A stretch of DNA of 64,000 bases from Thalassolituus hydrocarboniclasticus (lineage in GTDB: Bacteria > Pseudomonadota > Gammaproteobacteria > Pseudomonadales > Oceanobacteraceae): positions 2,324,448 through 2,388,447 of the forward strand of contig NZ_CP054475.1 in NCBI RefSeq assembly GCF_025345565.1, read 5' to 3'. Numbering within the stretch: the stretch's first letter is position 1; each line of letters begins with the position of its first letter. The notes under the pieces were generated by a model. It searched no databases. It saw only the letters and a program-made list of their open reading frames with translations, and had not been told where the DNA came from. Of the stretch, positions 1 through 19,243 are shown in pieces. The position numbers were made by a program, and so were the translations under genes.

Positions 1-52
1 TGGCCAGAGTCAGCAGCACACTGCACAGTGCTATATGAAGTCCTTTTCTCAT
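1..52 (-). CDS. N-terminal fragment of an exported protein
   Basis: Only the first 17 codons lie in the window; the gene runs off the left edge. The start ATG is at 52 on the minus strand, 6 nt after the stop of the FKBP gene, which suggests co-transcription. The visible peptide has a basic start (MRKG) followed by a hydrophobic run (IALCSVLLTLA), typical of a signal peptide or lipoprotein leader. The Shine-Dalgarno is weak, so translation may be coupled to the upstream gene. The function of the mature protein cannot be judged. Confidence 0.5.
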   Translation of the reverse strand, partial: MRKGLHIALCSVLLTLA

Positions 53-58
53 CAGCTT

Positions 59-538
59 TCAGCTCTCAATTTTTAATAATTCAACATCAAAGATCAGCAA
101 CGAGCCGGCCGGAATGGTTCCGGCGCGCTGATTGCCATAGGCCAGATCGGCCGGAATAAATAAACGTGTTTTTTCACCTTCTACCATCAGCTGCAAACCT
201 TCCGTCCAGCCGCGGATAACCTGATTCAGGCCAAAGGCAATGGGTTCGTTACGCACCACAGAGCTGTCAAACACCGAGCCATCCAGCAAAGTACCATGAT
301 AATGCACTAATACCCGGTCGCGCGGGCCTGGGTGTTTTTCACCCGTTCCCGGCTGTAATACCAGATATTGCAGACCGGATGCGGTTTCTCTCACCCCATC
401 CTGCTTTTTATTTTCCGCCAGAAATTCAGCACCCGCTGCGACATTTTCGACCGCACTTTTACCGCTGCCGACACCGGCACGACGTAATGCATAGAACAAC
501 AGACCTGCAATGATCACTACCAGCAAAATATTCAGCAT
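59..538 (-). CDS. FKBP-type peptidyl-prolyl cis-trans isomerase, membrane-anchored
   Basis: Catalyses cis-trans isomerisation of X-Pro bonds, probably at the periplasmic face of the inner membrane. The 159-residue protein starts with one membrane segment (about residues 3-18), a linker, then an FKBP domain (about 56-157) with the family signatures VLVHYHGTLLDGSVFDSS, the VIRGWTEGLQLM helix and the IPADLAYG loop. I chose ATG 538 over an in-frame start at 571 because GGGAG sits 5 nt before it, and because the longer form would put charged residues ahead of the anchor. It is followed after 6 nt by another exported protein gene, so the two probably form an operon. The family call is firm; the client proteins are unknown. 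Confidence 0.9.
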   Translation of the reverse strand: MLNILLVVIIAGLLFYALRRAGVGSGKSAVENVAAGAEFLAENKKQDGVRETASGLQYLVLQPGTGEKHPGPRDRVLVHYHGTLLDGSVFDSSVVRNEPIAFGLNQVIRGWTEGLQLMVEGEKTRLFIPADLAYGNQRAGTIPAGSLLIFDVELLKIES

Positions 539-639
539 ACGAACTCCCGGAGCAATAAAATAATCGGGCATTCTAGCGACTGGACGGCATCAGTACCATG
601 CCGTTTAATGACCTTCGGCCGAATAACAGGAATATCACT

Positions 640-1437
640 ATGCCAACCGTTCACAGCGCAGCAGAACCGCGTCCACCCATCGTTTTTATTCACGGCATGT
701 GGTGCGGGCCAGAGGTATTTGAGCCCTACCGGCAATTTTTTACTGAGCGCGGTTACCAGTGCTATACCCCGGCATTGCGTCAGCACGATATTCAGGACAA
801 CGAAAGCACAGCGCTTGGTCAACTCAGTCTGCGCGACTATGCCGCCGATCTGGAAGCTTTTATCCGCACGCTGCCACAACGGCCGGTGCTGATTGGTCAC
901 TCTATGGGAGGATTGCTGGCGCAAATGCTGTGTGCACGTCAATCAGCAACGTCTGCGGTGTTAATCTGCCCGGCATCACCGGCCGGCGTACACGCTCTGA
1001 CAGCATCCGTTGTGCGCAGCTTTTTTACGGTGATGACGCGCTGGGGTTTCTGGAAAAAGCCCAACAAACTCTCTCCGGCAGCAGCGCGTTATGCCCTCTT
1101 TAATCGCCTGCCGGATGACGCAGCACAGGATGCTTATCAGCAAATGCGTTATGAAAGCGGTCGCGCCGCCTTCGAAATTGGTTTCTGGTTGCTTGACCGG
1201 AATAAGGCTAGCCGGGTTGATGAGCGCAAAGTGATCCAGCCGTTACTGGTCATCTCCGGCGCCGACGACCACATCACCCCTGCGGCCATCAATAAAAAAG
1301 TCGCTGCGCGCTATGCCAACGCCAAATATCGCTGCTACCCGAATCATGCTCATTGGCTGATTGCCGAGCCCGGCTGGCAAAGCATTGCCGGAGATATCGC
1401 GGACTGGCTTGAGCAGCAGCACGGGCAGAACGCATAA
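640..1437 (+). CDS. alpha/beta hydrolase
   Basis: A 265-residue alpha/beta-hydrolase-fold protein. Near the start it has the oxyanion motif VFIHGMWCG, then the nucleophile elbow GHSMGG, a late acid in SGADDHITP and the catalytic histidine in NHAHW. It has no signal peptide, so it is probably cytoplasmic. An earlier in-frame ATG (598) has no ribosome site, whereas AGGA lies 9 nt before 640. It is divergent from the FKBP gene, about 100 nt away, and is closed by a strong terminator. The substrate cannot be told from sequence; esterase, lipase-like and haloperoxidase-like relatives all share this layout. Confidence 0.85.
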   Translation: MPTVHSAAEPRPPIVFIHGMWCGPEVFEPYRQFFTERGYQCYTPALRQHDIQDNESTALGQLSLRDYAADLEAFIRTLPQRPVLIGHSMGGLLAQMLCARQSATSAVLICPASPAGVHALTASVVRSFFTVMTRWGFWKKPNKLSPAAARYALFNRLPDDAAQDAYQQMRYESGRAAFEIGFWLLDRNKASRVDERKVIQPLLVISGADDHITPAAINKKVAARYANAKYRCYPNHAHWLIAEPGWQSIAGDIADWLEQQHGQNA

Positions 1438-1466
1438 AAAAACGCCGCAGATGCGGCGTTTTTTAT
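1438..1466. terminator. Rho-independent terminator, bidirectional
   Basis: A perfect 9-bp stem (AACGCCGCA / TGCGGCGTT, 1441-1460) with a 2-nt turn is flanked by an A-run on the left and a T-run on the right. It can end both the hydrolase gene (+) and the DUF599 gene (-), which converge here. Confidence 0.9.
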
Positions 1467-1490
1467 TGTCGGTGTTATTAGCTGAGCCAT

Positions 1491-2231
1491 TCAGTAACGC
1501 GACAGTTCTTTATCGTCTTTAAATAACTTATCGCCGACATTCTCAACCTTTTTCAGCGCTTCCAGCGAGTTTGACAAAAACTCCCGCTCATACAGCACCA
1601 CCACCACCAGTGCTGCTGCGGCAATAAACGCCCAGGGATGGATAAACCAGGTCAGAATGGCGAGTGAAAAATAAAAGGAGCGCAACCCGTAGTTATAACT
1701 GCGGCTGGCCTGATCAATGATTTTAGCGCCGTAAATCGCAAAGCTGCGGCGCTCGGCCGCGGTTACCGAATCATCGCCCGGTAACGGGGCTGCGCCCACC
1801 AGCACGGAGGCAAAGCCAAACTGACGCATCGACCAGGTAAAGGTGAAGAAGGCGTAAATAAACACACCGATTAAAGTCAGGATTTTCAGTTCCAGCGCCA
1901 GTAAGGTATCGACTACCGCAAACGACACTCCGGACAACATGCCCTCAACTTTATCAACGGCAGTCAGCGCAGTCAGCAAACCCGCAAGAATCAGCACACA
2001 GGAAGAGGCGAAGAAATTAACGTTACGCTCAAGATTAGCCAGCAGCGCGGCATCCCCCACCCGCACTTCGCGCTGCAGCAGGCGCCGCATCCAGTTAATA
2101 CGGTGCACGTGCAACACAGACGACAGTGAGGCCGACGTTTTCGCTTTGTACTTGGCAAACTGGGTATAGGCTACCCAACAACCGATAAACCAGGCCAGGC
2201 TGAGCCAGTTAATTAAACCAATTTCCGACAT
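1491..2231 (-). CDS. DUF599 family membrane protein
   Basis: A 246-residue integral membrane protein with about four hydrophobic segments: near the N-terminus (LINWLSLAWFIGCWVAY), the middle (FFASSCVLILAGLLTAL), LKILTLIGVFIYAFFTF, and the C-terminal AILTWFIHPWAFIAAAALVVVVLY. The pattern HVHRINWMRRLLQRE, an invariant-looking D in VGDAALLANLERNVNFFAS, and the internal TWSMRQF are typical of DUF599. ATG 2231 is preceded by GGAG at 9 nt; a longer ORF from 2276 adds an unlikely leader. It is convergent with the upstream hydrolase gene. No biochemical function is known to me for this family. Confidence 0.8.
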   Translation of the reverse strand: MSEIGLINWLSLAWFIGCWVAYTQFAKYKAKTSASLSSVLHVHRINWMRRLLQREVRVGDAALLANLERNVNFFASSCVLILAGLLTALTAVDKVEGMLSGVSFAVVDTLLALELKILTLIGVFIYAFFTFTWSMRQFGFASVLVGAAPLPGDDSVTAAERRSFAIYGAKIIDQASRSYNYGLRSFYFSLAILTWFIHPWAFIAAAALVVVVLYEREFLSNSLEALKKVENVGDKLFKDDKELSRY

Positions 2232-2446
2232 GCAGCCGCGCTCCAGATAAACAACAGAACCAAGATGCGTCAGCATAACCGGATTAAGGCCCGGTATGAA
2301 TACACCCGTACCGCAAGCCTGACTAAGTAGTTTTACCAGTCATCCAGCCCCACTGGCAGGAAAGTTCTGTGATTATAAAGATAACGATTGAACTGCGGCC
2401 GCTTTCTGCAATCATAGCGCTGCGGCAGCAACTGTCGTCTGAAGAT

Positions 2447-2476
2447 CTGAGCAGGAAAGACCTGAACAGGAAAGGC
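2447..2476 (+). repeat. 15-bp tandem repeat, two copies
   Basis: CTGAGCAGGAAAGAC (2447-2461) is followed directly by CTGAACAGGAAAGGC (2462-2476), with two differences. It lies in the leader of the small gene at 2520. The rest of 2232-2519 holds no gene that I can support. Confidence 0.6.
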
Positions 2477-2519
2477 CTGCGCAGTAATGATCAGAGCGAT
2501 CACAATAACGGAGAGCAAT

Positions 2520-2723
2520 ATGAGCAAGAAAAGCAATGCACTGGCTGGCCAGCCGGTACGGCGTAACCTGCATGCCTGTGCCGCCATTATGCGCAAAGGT
2601 GGCGTACACGAAACCACGACCAAGGCCAAACGTAATCAGGCCAAACGGCAACTGAACAAGGCAATGCGTGAGGGGGGCAACAGCTCCCCTTTTTATTGCC
2701 TGTTATTTGGCATCATTGCCTGA
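2520..2723 (+). CDS. small basic protein whose ORF contains an intrinsic terminator
   Basis: A 67-codon gene with a good Shine-Dalgarno (GGAG, 7 nt before ATG 2520). The first 50 residues are very basic, with MRKGGVHE around residues 24-31 and a lysine/arginine-rich helix after it. The last part turns hydrophobic (FYCLLFGIIA). I do not recognise the family. At codons 51-58 the message forms a perfect hairpin with a U-run, before any in-frame stop, so transcripts ending there would carry no stop codon. This is the layout known for arfA genes of several proteobacteria, where non-stop mRNA makes the ribosome-rescue factor dependent on tmRNA failure. The peptide lacks the KGKGSY core of classical ArfA, so a link to rescue is inference only. 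Confidence 0.6.
   Translation: MSKKSNALAGQPVRRNLHACAAIMRKGGVHETTTKAKRNQAKRQLNKAMREGGNSSPFYCLLFGIIA
2671..2696 (+). terminator. Rho-independent terminator inside the small ORF
   Basis: AGGGGGGC (2671-2678), loop AACA, GCTCCCCT (2683-2690) pair over 8 bp (one G-T), followed by TTTTAT. It lies inside the reading frame of the 2520-2723 gene, 33 nt before its stop codon. Confidence 0.85.
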
Positions 2724-2785
2724 ACGGCTTACCTCCCTACCCGATCCTATCCCCGAACGGCTTACCCTTCTACCCGAACGGCTTA
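2722..2785. repeat. three copies of GAACGGCTTA
   Basis: Copies at 2722-2731, 2755-2764 and 2776-2785 lie within pyrimidine-rich DNA (CCCTACC-like) between the small gene and the 3' end of the arsenic operon. No stem with a U-run was seen. The function is unknown. Confidence 0.5.
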
Positions 2786-2804
2786 TCGCTCCGCTCTGAC
2801 CTTT

Positions 2805-3344
2805 TCACCGCTCCGTTCTCTGCTTTAACCACTCAACCAAGCGCTGAATTTTAATATCCGACAACTGGCGGTAATCAAAATACGGGCACAACACCAGCCC
2901 TGACGCTTTATGCAGGGCGAAGTCGTTATCCAGCCAGATCAGCTCGCTACTTAAGCCCAGAGTCTGGGCATAGCCTTTAGCCAGTAATAAACGGATTTTT
3001 GTCGTATCCCGATTCAGCTCCGGCGGCGAAAATAACAACGCCTGGCCACTGCCCGCCTGCAATAACTGCTGATCGCGCAGATCCTGCCAGCGTGTAAAAC
3101 CAGACACTTCCTGATTGTTATCTCCGTTAATACCGGCCTGCTGCAGGGCAAAGATCAGCTTGGCGTACACATTAAAAATCTTGCGCCAATGATTGCCGGT
3201 TTCACTGGCGATACGGGCAATATCTCCGCGCTGCAGGGGCTGCATGGCCTGCAATTGCTGGTATTCCGCCAGCGGCGGACGGTTGGCGATAAATATCTGA
3301 ATACCGGCGTCAGCGTCACCGAGGCCAATTCTCTGATTACTCAT
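2805..3344 (-). CDS. conserved-looking protein of unknown function, last gene of the ars operon
   Basis: A 179-residue soluble protein with no signal peptide. Its start overlaps the arsH stop by 4 nt (ATGA), so it should be translated with the operon. Visible traits: an N-terminal segment with IFIANRPPL, a helical middle ([20 protein letters not shown]), a [26 protein letters not shown] stretch, and a C-terminal [25 protein letters not shown]. The mention of DUF6942 as a possible family is a weak recollection. Position suggests an arsenic or oxidative-stress role, but co-transcription is the only evidence; it could simply be a passenger gene. No recognisable catalytic motif. Confidence 0.7.
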
Positions 3345-4051
3345 ATTGAACGCTGATTAACCCGCTTCATTAATTCTTCCGCGCTTTCTTTGCGCTCGGA
3401 ATAACGGTCCAGCAGGTAATCATTGCGGTCGCGGGTTAGCAGCGTAAATTTCAGCAGCTCTTCCAGTACATCGACAATACGGTCGTAATACGGCGATGGC
3501 TTCATACGGTCATTATCATCAAATTCGGCCCAGGCTTTGGCCACCGATGATTGATTCGGGATAGTCAGCATCCGCATCCAACGGCCTAACACGCGCAGCT
3601 GATTCACCGCATTAAACGACTGCGAACCACCACACACCTGCATAACCGCCAGCGTTTTACCCTGCGTAGGCCGCACCGCGCCCATATTCAGCGGAATCCA
3701 GTCAATCTGTGCTTTCATAATGCCGGTCATAGCACCGTGGCGTTCCGGCGAGCACCACACCATGCCTTCACTCCAGTTCACCAGCTCGCGTAATTCCTGC
3801 ACTTTCGGGTGGCTGTCGTCACTGTCGTCCGGCAGCGGTAAACCGCTGGGATTAAATACCCGGGTTTCGGCCCCCATGGCCTCTAATAAGCGCACACTTT
3901 CTTCCACCACCAGCCGGCTGAACGAGCGACTGCGCAGTGAGCCGTAGAGCAGCAGAATCCGCGGCTTATGACTCGCTGGCTGACGGGAAAATAATTCGTC
4001 AGCGGCCGGTACTTTAAATAACTCCGGTATCAGGTTCGGTAAATCGCTCAT
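3341..4051 (-). CDS. arsH: ArsH NADPH-dependent FMN reductase / organoarsenical oxidase
   Basis: A 236-residue flavodoxin-like protein. ArsH proteins use NADPH and FMN; characterised members oxidise trivalent methylated arsenicals and reduce quinones or metals. The FMN phosphate loop is [10 protein letters not shown] near residue 37, and [18 protein letters not shown] and [16 protein letters not shown] are standard ArsH segments. It overlaps acr3 upstream and the unknown gene downstream by 4 nt each, so it is tightly coupled. Length matches the family. Its presence suggests that the host meets organic arsenicals as well as arsenate and arsenite. Confidence 0.95.
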
Positions 4052-5091
4052 AGTTTATCCTCATTCAGCTGGACTGCCGGAAACCAGTGACGGGTTTTAT
4101 TGGCAAAGGCCACCAGCGATAACATCACCGGGACTTCCACCAGCACCCCCACCACCGTCGCCAGCGCTGCACCGGAATGCAGACCAAACAGCGAGATGGC
4201 CACCGCAACCGCCAGCTCAAAGAAATTACTGGTGCCGATCATGCACGCAGGCGCGGCAATGTTATGCGCCAGACGCATTCTGCGGGCAATAAAATAGGCA
4301 ATAAAAAAGATGCCGTAAGTCTGTAGCATCAACGGAATGGCAATCAGCAGAATGTCAAAAGGCTTAGCGACAATGGTCTGCGCCTGCAGGGCAAACAGAA
4401 TCACCACGGTACTGATCAGACCAAGAACAGAAAAGGGTTTGATCGCCGCCATAAAGTGCGCCAGACGCTCGCTATGACGATCAGCCGATAACCACTTGCG
4501 GGTCAGTACCCCGGCCACCAATGGCAGCACCACATACAACAGCACCGAGATCAGCAGGGTCTGCCACGGCACCTGAATATCGGATACGCCGAGCAGGAAA
4601 GCAGCAATAGGGGCAAAGGCAAAAATCATAATCAGATCGTTAACCGACACCTGCACCAGAGTGTAATTGGCATCGCCTTTGGTTAACTGACTCCAGACAA
4701 ACACCATCGCCGTACAGGGTGCAACACCCAGTAAAATCATCCCGGCAATGTATTCACTGGCGGTCTGGGCATCGACCAGCCCGGCGAAAAAGACTTTAAA
4801 AAATAACCAGCCCAGCAAGGCCATGCTGAACGGTTTAATCAGCCAGTTAATCACCAGCGTCAGCAGCAGTCCCTGTGGCTTTTTACCGACATTTTTAATG
4901 GCCGAAAAATCAATCTGGATCATCATCGGATAAATCATCAGCCAGATTAATACCGCCACCACCAGATTTACCCGCGCCACTTCCAGCGCCGCAATACTGG
5001 CAAACAGATCAGGCAATAACAGCCCAAGTACCACACCCAATACCATGCCGGCGCCTACCCACAGGGTTAAAAAACGTTCAAAAATACCCAT
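4048..5091 (-). CDS. acr3: ACR3-family arsenite efflux permease
   Basis: A 347-residue transporter with ten hydrophobic segments, of the bile/arsenite/riboflavin transporter superfamily. It exports As(III) at the inner membrane. Diagnostic stretches are [18 protein letters not shown], the [13 protein letters not shown] loop with the conserved cysteine of ACR3 proteins, and [19 protein letters not shown]. It begins 3 nt after arsC and overlaps arsH by 4 nt. It belongs to the ACR3 type rather than the 12-TM ArsB type. The call is firm. Confidence 0.95.
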
Positions 5092-5094
5092 AAT

Positions 5095-5559
5095 TCAGAC
5101 TCCGCTCTGCTGCTGAAATACATGCTGAATATCGGCCGCTGTTTTATCCGACCAGTCGATGGCGCTGAGCGCACGGATACGCTCACGCAAAGTAGTCGCC
5201 ACCTGATTAAACGCCGCGCTTTGTTCGGCCTCCGGTAATTTTGACGGGTCGGGTAATCCCCAGTGCACTTTGATGCTGTTGCCCATCCACATTGGGCAGG
5301 CCTCTCCGGCGGCACTGTCGCAGACGGTAATCACCACATCCGGGGCGAAATCTGCAAATTCATCCCAGCTCTGGCTGCGCAGATCATCGCTGCGGATTCC
5401 CTGCTGCTGCAGAAAATTCAGCGTACCCGGATACACCACACCCGCTGGCTGACTGCCAGCGCTGCGCACCTCAAAAACACCATTGCTTTCAGCACGACAA
5501 ATGGCTTCCGCCAGAATGCTGCGGCAGCGGTTATGGGTACAAACAAATAACAGTTTCAT
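5095..5559 (-). CDS. arsC: arsenate reductase, low-molecular-weight phosphatase type
   Basis: Reduces arsenate to arsenite for export by Acr3. The 154-residue protein has the phosphatase loop CTHNRCR (Cys8 to Arg14), the SAGSQPAG segment, a second cysteine region VITVCDSAAGEACPMW (the redox relay of thioredoxin-coupled enzymes) and the WGLPDP acid loop. These identify the LMW-PTPase-like class rather than the glutaredoxin-dependent ArsC. It is second in the operon, 18 nt after arsR. The reductant (thioredoxin or mycothiol/glutaredoxin) is not directly shown; thioredoxin is most likely. Confidence 0.95.
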   Translation of the reverse strand: MKLLFVCTHNRCRSILAEAICRAESNGVFEVRSAGSQPAGVVYPGTLNFLQQQGIRSDDLRSQSWDEFADFAPDVVITVCDSAAGEACPMWMGNSIKVHWGLPDPSKLPEAEQSAAFNQVATTLRERIRALSAIDWSDKTAADIQHVFQQQSGV

Positions 5560-5577
5560 AAAAATATCCGGACAGGC

Positions 5578-5916
5578 TCAGCAGCAGGAAGACGAATTTG
5601 CCCCAGTCAGCGCGCTGCAGCGTTTGACGTAAGGGGCAATAAAATCATGATTAGCCGCCAGCGTGGTTTCGAGCACCTGCACAGCCCATTCAGGCAGTTG
5701 CGGATGCAGACGGTAATACACCCACTGGCCGCGTTTTTCGCTGCTGAGTAATTGCGCCGTGCGTAATTGCGCCAGATGGCGGGAAATTTTCGGCTGGCTT
5801 TCTTCCAGCGCCGCCATTAAATCGCACACACACAACTCGCCGTGCTGTTGCAGCAACAGCACCATCACCAGCCGGGTTTCATCATTCAGACACTTGAACA
5901 GGGTTAACGGGCTCAC
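5578..5916 (-). CDS. arsR: ArsR/SmtB-family arsenic-responsive repressor
   Basis: A winged-helix repressor that leaves DNA when As(III) binds. It has TLFKCLNDETRL, the metal-site helix ELCVCDL (the classic ELCVCDL As(III) motif), the recognition helix SQPKISRHLAQLR and a wing EKRGQWVYYRL. The C-terminus ends in a cysteine pair. I place the start at GTG 5916 (112 residues), because the upstream in-frame ATG at 5949 overlaps the -10 of the operon promoter and would lie upstream of the expected transcript start. The Shine-Dalgarno before GTG is weak (GGTAAG). It heads the operon arsR-arsC-acr3-arsH-unknown and is probably autoregulated. Confidence 0.93.
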   Translation of the reverse strand: MSPLTLFKCLNDETRLVMVLLLQQHGELCVCDLMAALEESQPKISRHLAQLRTAQLLSSEKRGQWVYYRLHPQLPEWAVQVLETTLAANHDFIAPYVKRCSALTGANSSSCC

Positions 5917-5944
5917 GGCACTTACCAGCAGAAATATCTGGAAA

Positions 5945-5973
5945 ATCATATATATGTTTTTTCATATATACAA
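5945..5973 (-). promoter_or_regulatory. ars operon promoter with embedded ArsR operator
   Basis: On the minus strand, TTGTAT (5968-5973) is followed after exactly 17 nt by TATGAT (5945-5950). Within the spacer lies a perfect inverted repeat TATATATG-N6-CATATATA (5949-5970), so a bound repressor would cover the RNA polymerase site. Expected transcription start is near 5938. Confidence 0.8.
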
Positions 5974-6143
5974 TCACCAAACGCCCCCTGACCCGGATGC
6001 CACCTTCAGCGGTCTTCCCAGCCCTTACATTCCCCCGCTTTTAGAGGTAACTTGCCTGCTTCTGATAATAAAAAGCGTTGCCGTTAGCAGGGTTTGTCGC
6101 CCCTAACGCAGCAGCCTGAAAGAAAATAACAAGGAGCCCAGCT

Positions 6144-19177: not shown

Positions 19178-19243
19178 AACTAATTCCCGTAAAACGAAAG
19201 CGGGGATGCAGTGCATCCCCAGAAAAATCAAAGCCCGCCGGTG

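Follow-up and report, generated by a model that had tools for sequence, protein, structure and literature searches.

A family of small basic proteins, many with an in-frame terminator hairpin: probable ribosome-rescue factors under ArfA/BrfA-like control

A 67-codon gene on the plus strand of the window, the 64,000-nucleotide stretch of Thalassolituus hydrocarboniclasticus DNA that was analysed, probably specifies a member of an apparently undescribed family: an RF-dependent factor for alternative ribosome rescue that follows the control logic of ArfA and BrfA. Judged by its sequence, the gene is ArfA/BrfA-like by anatomy and is not ArfA by membership. Genes that carry a hairpin and U-run like those of the window gene very likely yield mRNA without a stop codon and, given such mRNA, rescue activity of the product is quite likely.

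The small gene and its in-frame hairpin

The gene was found to consist of the following parts:

2510-2513, plus strand: GGAG, Shine-Dalgarno-like, with the start ATG six bases on (read directly)
2520-2723, plus strand: ORF of the new family, 67 codons, opening MSKKSNALAGQPVRRNLHACAAIMRKGGVHE... (sequence and relatives)
2562-2633, plus strand: conserved core from R15-N16 to R38, RN-x2-A-x4-(M/L)-RKGG-x-H-x7-R (alignments A2, A4, and A6)
2619-2672, plus strand: predicted basic helix, codons 34-51 (AlphaFold2 on alignment A6)
2670-2691, plus strand: in-frame terminator hairpin, codons 51-58, loop AACA at 2679-2682 (scans and RNAfold; identical in 7/7 genus genes)
2690-2697, plus strand: terminator T tract, with the predicted RNA 3′ end about here (from the sequence)
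2698-2723, plus strand: stop codon and a hydrophobic tail that is not conserved; transcription probably seldom reaches this far (conservation in alignment A2 ends at the hairpin)

The open reading frame and ribosome site claimed by the first-pass annotation are thus both present. The nearest long ORFs on either side of the gene are on the opposite strand, the next one 3′ of it being convergent, and a simple pattern scan of positions 1-6000 detected no promoter-like site on the plus strand upstream of the gene. Positions 2442-2484, also upstream, hold a 15-base unit repeated in a short tandem array (2.9 copies, 82% matches), and GAACGGCTTA was seen by eye three times, spaced, at about 2722-2786, starting directly past the stop codon. 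Farther on, positions 3341-5949 of the minus strand presumably form an arsenic-resistance cluster, as judged by eye (ArsH-like, ACR3-like, ArsC-like, and ArsR-like genes).

The hairpin had been described as a perfect terminator with an AACA loop and a U-run at codons 51-58, ahead of the stop codon; all of this was borne out except the word perfect, since two of the nine stem pairs are G-U. TTTTT follows at 2690-2694, and the stop codon (2721-2723) lies 29 bases from the hairpin. When positions 2655-2710 were folded by RNAfold, an energy of −28.0 kcal/mol was obtained (z −4.8), with 0/200 dinucleotide shuffles as good. A simple terminator pattern by itself means little, as the scan of positions 1-6000 returned 9 terminator-like sites versus 7.9 (sd 3.1) in shuffles; the only others on the plus strand in these first 6 kb were at 1454-1471 and 5124-5136. 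When the entire window was scanned more strictly (−12 kcal/mol and 6 T in 8; 55 ORFs of at least 100 aa as gene proxies), 24 strand-sites at 16 places emerged. Twenty-two of these strand-sites were positioned outside or at the edge of the ORFs of at least 100 aa; the other two were 19201-19221 on the minus strand, inside a sense ORF, and the window hairpin, inside the 67-codon ORF. Synonymous recoding of the window gene reached its own hairpin in 0/100 trials. With loops of up to 14 allowed, the comparison to synonymous recoding gave a P-value of 0.047 for the window gene and of 0.02 to 0.13 for its six genus mates, such that the window gene by itself is just moderately improbable and the family carries the case.

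Conservation of the hairpin in the genus and across the family

The seven genus genes were compared at the codon level, with Met excluded from all counts of synonymous codons. The hairpin DNA is identical in the seven genes found, the proteins of which are down to 64% identical. Synonymous variation was detected at 11/20 amino-acid-invariant codons before the hairpin region versus 0/10 within the hairpin and its three preceding codons (p 0.004); when the hairpin alone was considered, the counts were 0/8 versus 11/22 before it (p 0.014). The synonymous variation at amino-acid-invariant codons of these genes shows that the window ORF is genuinely coding.

Relatives were next collected as 145 loci, from which 117 distinct genes remained after removal of (i) two loci without the motif (L034 and L059) and the repeats L010-L012; and (ii) 17 duplicates, judged by eye, and six ArfA loci. 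The locus set has no entry for G351, which is among the 51 matches in the order. In 72/117 relatives the frame contains a simple hairpin with an energy of −12 kcal/mol or lower, versus 24/222 neighbouring ORF ends of the same loci (Fisher p 4e-22), and the addition of p ≤0.05 against synonymous recoding left 63/117 genes versus 12/222 controls. These counts allowed loops of up to 14, since a hairpin scan with loops up to 8 overlooks longer loops, and used 300 recodings for the family genes and 100 for the controls. Conversely, 45/117 relatives have no in-frame hairpin of −12, and 54/117 fail −12 plus p ≤0.05. An earlier recoding null had 37/117 genes beating all 100 recodings and 47 with at most one as good, while 28/117 had no hairpin of −6 within the frame. 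A more permissive count by RNAfold (95/117 at −9) was set aside because GC-rich genes easily reach that energy. The first-pass annotation, which read the gene as arfA-type (hairpin before the stop codon, with non-stop mRNA logic) and proposed asking whether homologues keep the hairpin inside the frame, is supported by its retention in all seven genus genes found and by the strong hairpins of the 72 relatives.

A T-rich tail (5 T or more per 8 bases) follows 44/72 of the hairpins. For the 28/72 below this level (e.g., L008 and L033) the RNA end may be made by RNase III or another cut, or there may be none. Compensatory changes of the hairpin arms were identified in three clades, the pairs altered on both sides numbering two in the Reinekea-Marinomonas type (6 genes), three in family f43 (8 genes), and one in the REW type (6 genes); the KET set showed no both-side pair change and one broken pair. 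In all of these sets the hairpins were chosen and aligned by eye, and the pair counts omit L026 as well as L032 and part of KET, the last two on account of length. In family f36, the stop codon comes first in 8/8 fetched genes (9 matches), and a U-tailed terminator follows it in 5/8. A stop codon upstream of the hairpin had been named beforehand as evidence against the arfA-type reading; it is thus encountered in other clades and not in the close relatives of the window gene. With 45/117 relatives lacking a strong hairpin and ordinary stops present in some clades, the non-stop design is not universal, and the in-frame terminator is, as judged from these genes, clade-specific. Among Thiotrichaceae, the hairpin of L089 is in frame, and a very similar hairpin in L104 ends about 118 bases past the stop codon; these two loci provide a natural pair for studying the gain or loss of non-stop control.

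Protein core, predicted helix, and end of the protein

The protein is small and basic (net +11). K26, G27, G28, and H30 were invariant in alignments A2, A4, and A6, and N16, A19, and R38 were mostly so. The core of the family reads RN-x2-A-x2-P-(I/L)-(M/L)-(R/K)-KGG-x-H, with a basic stretch after it; across 45 diverse members neither KGG nor the His varies, an invariance that partly reflects how members were picked, as KGG-x-H also served as a search and location pattern. A hydrophobic pair, mostly after proline, precedes RKGG-x-H and the predicted basic helix. AlphaFold2 assigned a pLDDT of about 85 to residues 31-50 and of 53-65 elsewhere (mean 67.2), and the model is uncertain outside of this one helix.

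Conservation of the protein in alignment A2 stops at the hairpin; past this point the tails are of differing length. Among the 72 hairpin genes, this tail has a median of 11 codons (range 0.7 to 87), with the hairpin ending 27.7 codons past the conserved His and the stop codon at 41. The stop codon of 26 hairpin-less members, hand-picked by clade, is found at a median of 27.0 codons past the same His, and at 29.0 codons in the full set of 45 genes that lack a strong hairpin; ordinary-stop members of only 44-52 residues exist. Based on the similar end distances after the His (27.0 and 27.7), the functional protein apparently stops at the predicted 3′ end of the RNA. The window product would be about 58-60 residues, translated from an mRNA without a stop codon.

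Distribution of the family and relationship to ArfA

The window lies in a single contig of 4,067,951 bases. A search of 55 genomes with the window protein alone produced matches in its own genome and 8 others, distributed as 6/8 genus mates, 1/25 other members of the taxonomic family, and 1/21 others of the order; by this single-protein search, 2/9 genomes of the genus had no match. Profile searches detected relatives in 51/390 genomes of the order and, with a wider profile, in 27/369 genomes of the class, where two loci are doubtful (L182 and L183, which have no credible gene), so that 27/369 may be slightly high. The 27 class loci (L158-L184) were read by eye and stand outside of every hairpin count. 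One class genome, G662, had two profile matches to the new family, L167 and L184, the latter divergent. Among named genomes, a scan confirmed 102 relatives, of which the best 80 were kept; these 80 include Reinekea, Marinomonas, Hahella, Cellvibrio, Saccharophagus, Marinicella, Leucothrix, Thiotrichaceae, Competibacteraceae, and Ketobacter, and a few are labelled as betaproteobacteria (Rhodocyclales, Burkholderiales, and Aquitalea). A consensus core searched by tblastn at E up to 0.01 matched nothing among 72,556 plasmid and 50,697 phage records.

The genome of the window encodes tmRNA (199 bits) with SmpB just upstream of it, both RF1 and RF2, and ArfB (186 bits versus a cut-off of 100), and has no match to ArfA (PF03889). 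ArfA was detected in 29/390 order genomes (28 above the cut-off of the family) and in 6/369 class genomes, and was never found with the new family in one genome in either sample (51 and 29 of 390 for the order; 27 and 6 of 369 for the class). The exclusion was of p 0.015 by genome and 0.13 by genus in the order and of p 0.63 in the class; given these weak values after merging, and with neither the family nor ArfA in 310/390 order genomes, it is only suggestive. Within genus g192, the new family occurs in one species (G596) and ArfA in two (G458 and G700). Of 12 ArfA control loci (11 shown, L190 having no motif), 3 were seen by eye to have a hairpin and T tract ahead of the stop codon (L185, L188, and L189). 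In ArfA loci L040-L045 and L186 of the order, a long hairpin seems by eye to span the stop codon instead of lying wholly ahead of it.

Comparison with known families

Matches to known families were at chance level. The window protein had no match in Pfam (E up to 10), and its best NCBIfam match had an E-value of 0.15. For 32 relatives, the best values were 0.019 (Pfam) and 0.013 (NCBIfam), to unrelated families that each matched at most two members. ArfA was not among the chance Pfam matches of these 32 (E up to 1) or of six more, and RF-1 (Pfam) was matched by neither the window protein nor the 32 relatives. Sequence searches of the PDB returned no relative (best E 0.74 and 1.1), and the two proteins compared with PHROGs had nonsignificant matches to families of unknown function (E 0.12 and 0.014). 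No description of the family was found in the family libraries or in the literature searched, which covered few subscription papers and no bioRxiv preprints. The family is thus unannotated and undescribed as far as Pfam, NCBIfam, PDB, PHROGs, and this literature extend.

ArfA, encoded by Escherichia coli and other gamma- and betaproteobacteria, in the same class of bacteria as the new family, is likewise short and basic, with an in-frame hairpin and a hydrophobic tail past it. ArfA differs, however, in its KGKGSY motif. Membership of the new family in ArfA was rejected based on (i) no PF03889 match; (ii) no KGKGSY-type motif in alignments A2 and A4, as the first-pass annotation had found for the window peptide; and (iii) no profile relation, with hhalign of 45 members versus 11 ArfA sequences giving a probability of 0.1 over one column. 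The further guess of that annotation, an unrelated rescue factor, fits this result and the ArfA-free genome. In E. coli, the in-frame hairpin of arfA is described as generating non-stop mRNA by termination or by RNase III (PMC8012679), and the basic C-terminal region of ArfA is reported to occupy the empty mRNA channel while a hydrophobic patch (Leu19, Leu24, and Phe25) lies on RF2 (PMC5378476). By analogy, the hydrophobic pair, RKGG-x-H, and helix of the new family could match these RF2-patch and channel parts. ArfB (YaeJ) also has a back-up rescue role; it carries its own RF-1 domain (GGQ), for which the new family gave no Pfam match. The tails of SmpB and ArfB are helical in the mRNA channel.

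BrfA (Bacillus subtilis YqkK) is described as having an in-frame Rho-independent terminator, a product of about 62 of 71 residues, and negative control by trans-translation; as presented there, it is conserved in a subset of Bacillaceae and unrelated in sequence to ArfA and ArfT (PMC6881298). The new family shares the in-frame terminator; BrfA was not returned by the PDB searches. The sources differ on BrfA, as one presents it as homologous to ArfA with RNase III control (PMC11633108) and the other as having an intrinsic terminator and no clear relation (PMC6881298).

Proposed function and alternatives

In the proposed mechanism, transcription of the gene would end at the in-frame hairpin or, where there is no U-run, the transcript would be cut by RNase III, leaving an mRNA without a stop codon. 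Ribosomes would reach its 3′ end and stall, and tmRNA-SmpB would tag the peptide of about 58 residues for degradation. Once trans-translation is overloaded, untagged peptide would be released and accumulate. By analogy with ArfA, its basic RKGG-x-H region and helix would insert into the empty mRNA channel. The hydrophobic P-(I/L)-(M/L) patch ahead of them, for which the window protein has A-I-M, would recruit RF2 (or RF1), and this factor would free the nascent chain. In the ordinary-stop clades, the same protein would escape non-stop control, as does ArfT.

The anatomy of the gene fixes its regulation and not its activity, and no rescue factor is matched in sequence; the product may therefore be a different protein that senses failed trans-translation through its own non-stop mRNA, such as a regulator or ribosome-hibernation factor. 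This we regard as unlikely, as the size and charge of the protein and the absence of ArfA from the same genomes suit rescue. To our knowledge, moreover, ArfA and BrfA are the only two families with the non-stop in-frame arrangement, and both are rescue factors. Their published descriptions accord with this role (PMC8012679, PMC6881298).

Possible, if doubtful, is that the family is distant kin of ArfT, some members of which have gained an in-frame terminator, a reading that overlaps with the preferred one in that the product would still be a rescue factor. The extension of ArfT by Burroughs and Aravind reportedly concerns KGG-repeat proteins; it is described as a wide one (PMC6514570). Francisella ArfT, as portrayed in the account of it (PMC6299226), has 40 residues, KKGGSTNKK near the C-terminus, and an ordinary stop; its frame contains no terminator, and there is no site for RNase III. 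ArfT is likewise very short and RF-dependent, with KKGG followed by basic residues, and in this resembles the ordinary-stop members of the new family. However, the quoted motif, through which alone ArfT was compared, lacks the conserved His after KGG and the basic core that follows, and as a DNA pattern it was found in 0/369 class genomes, among which Francisella may not be represented.

A leader peptide or attenuator could also be envisioned, in which read-through into a downstream gene is governed by translation across the hairpin: the hairpin would be melted by ribosomes that translate the ORF, and a sense ORF does follow within 300 bases in 23/88 loci. Against this, the ORF next to the window gene is convergent, on the other strand, and in 47/88 loci (at least 2,900 bases each) an antisense ORF comes first downstream, within 300 bases. 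Conservation of the protein core, moreover, speaks for a product that functions; from the orientation of downstream genes, a leader peptide is thus very unlikely. A small RNA with its terminator overlapping a chance ORF would suit the strong hairpin, U-run, and short transcript, yet is hardly credible next to the family-wide amino acid conservation with synonymous change outside of the hairpin; this codon-level conservation led us to reject the chance ORF.

Significance

More likely than not, this is a third family with independently evolved non-stop control, with no detectable sequence relation to ArfA and not known kin of BrfA. The same reading, held with the same leaning, is of a widespread back-up rescue factor of gamma- and some betaproteobacteria in which the terminator is gained or lost by clade and the end of the protein is fixed. 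According to the account of BrfA, RF-dependent rescue factors may be far more numerous than those described, sequence similarity alone cannot find them, and better search strategies are needed (PMC6881298); the in-frame terminator is one such strategy. In a 2024 survey of 15,259 genomes, ArfA is given as the least conserved rescue mechanism (PMC11633108), and the new family was detected in more genomes than ArfA in both of our samples. If the rescue-factor reading is true, the family would fill part of this ArfA gap and represent a third origin of non-stop control, and its clades with and without such control make a direct comparison possible.
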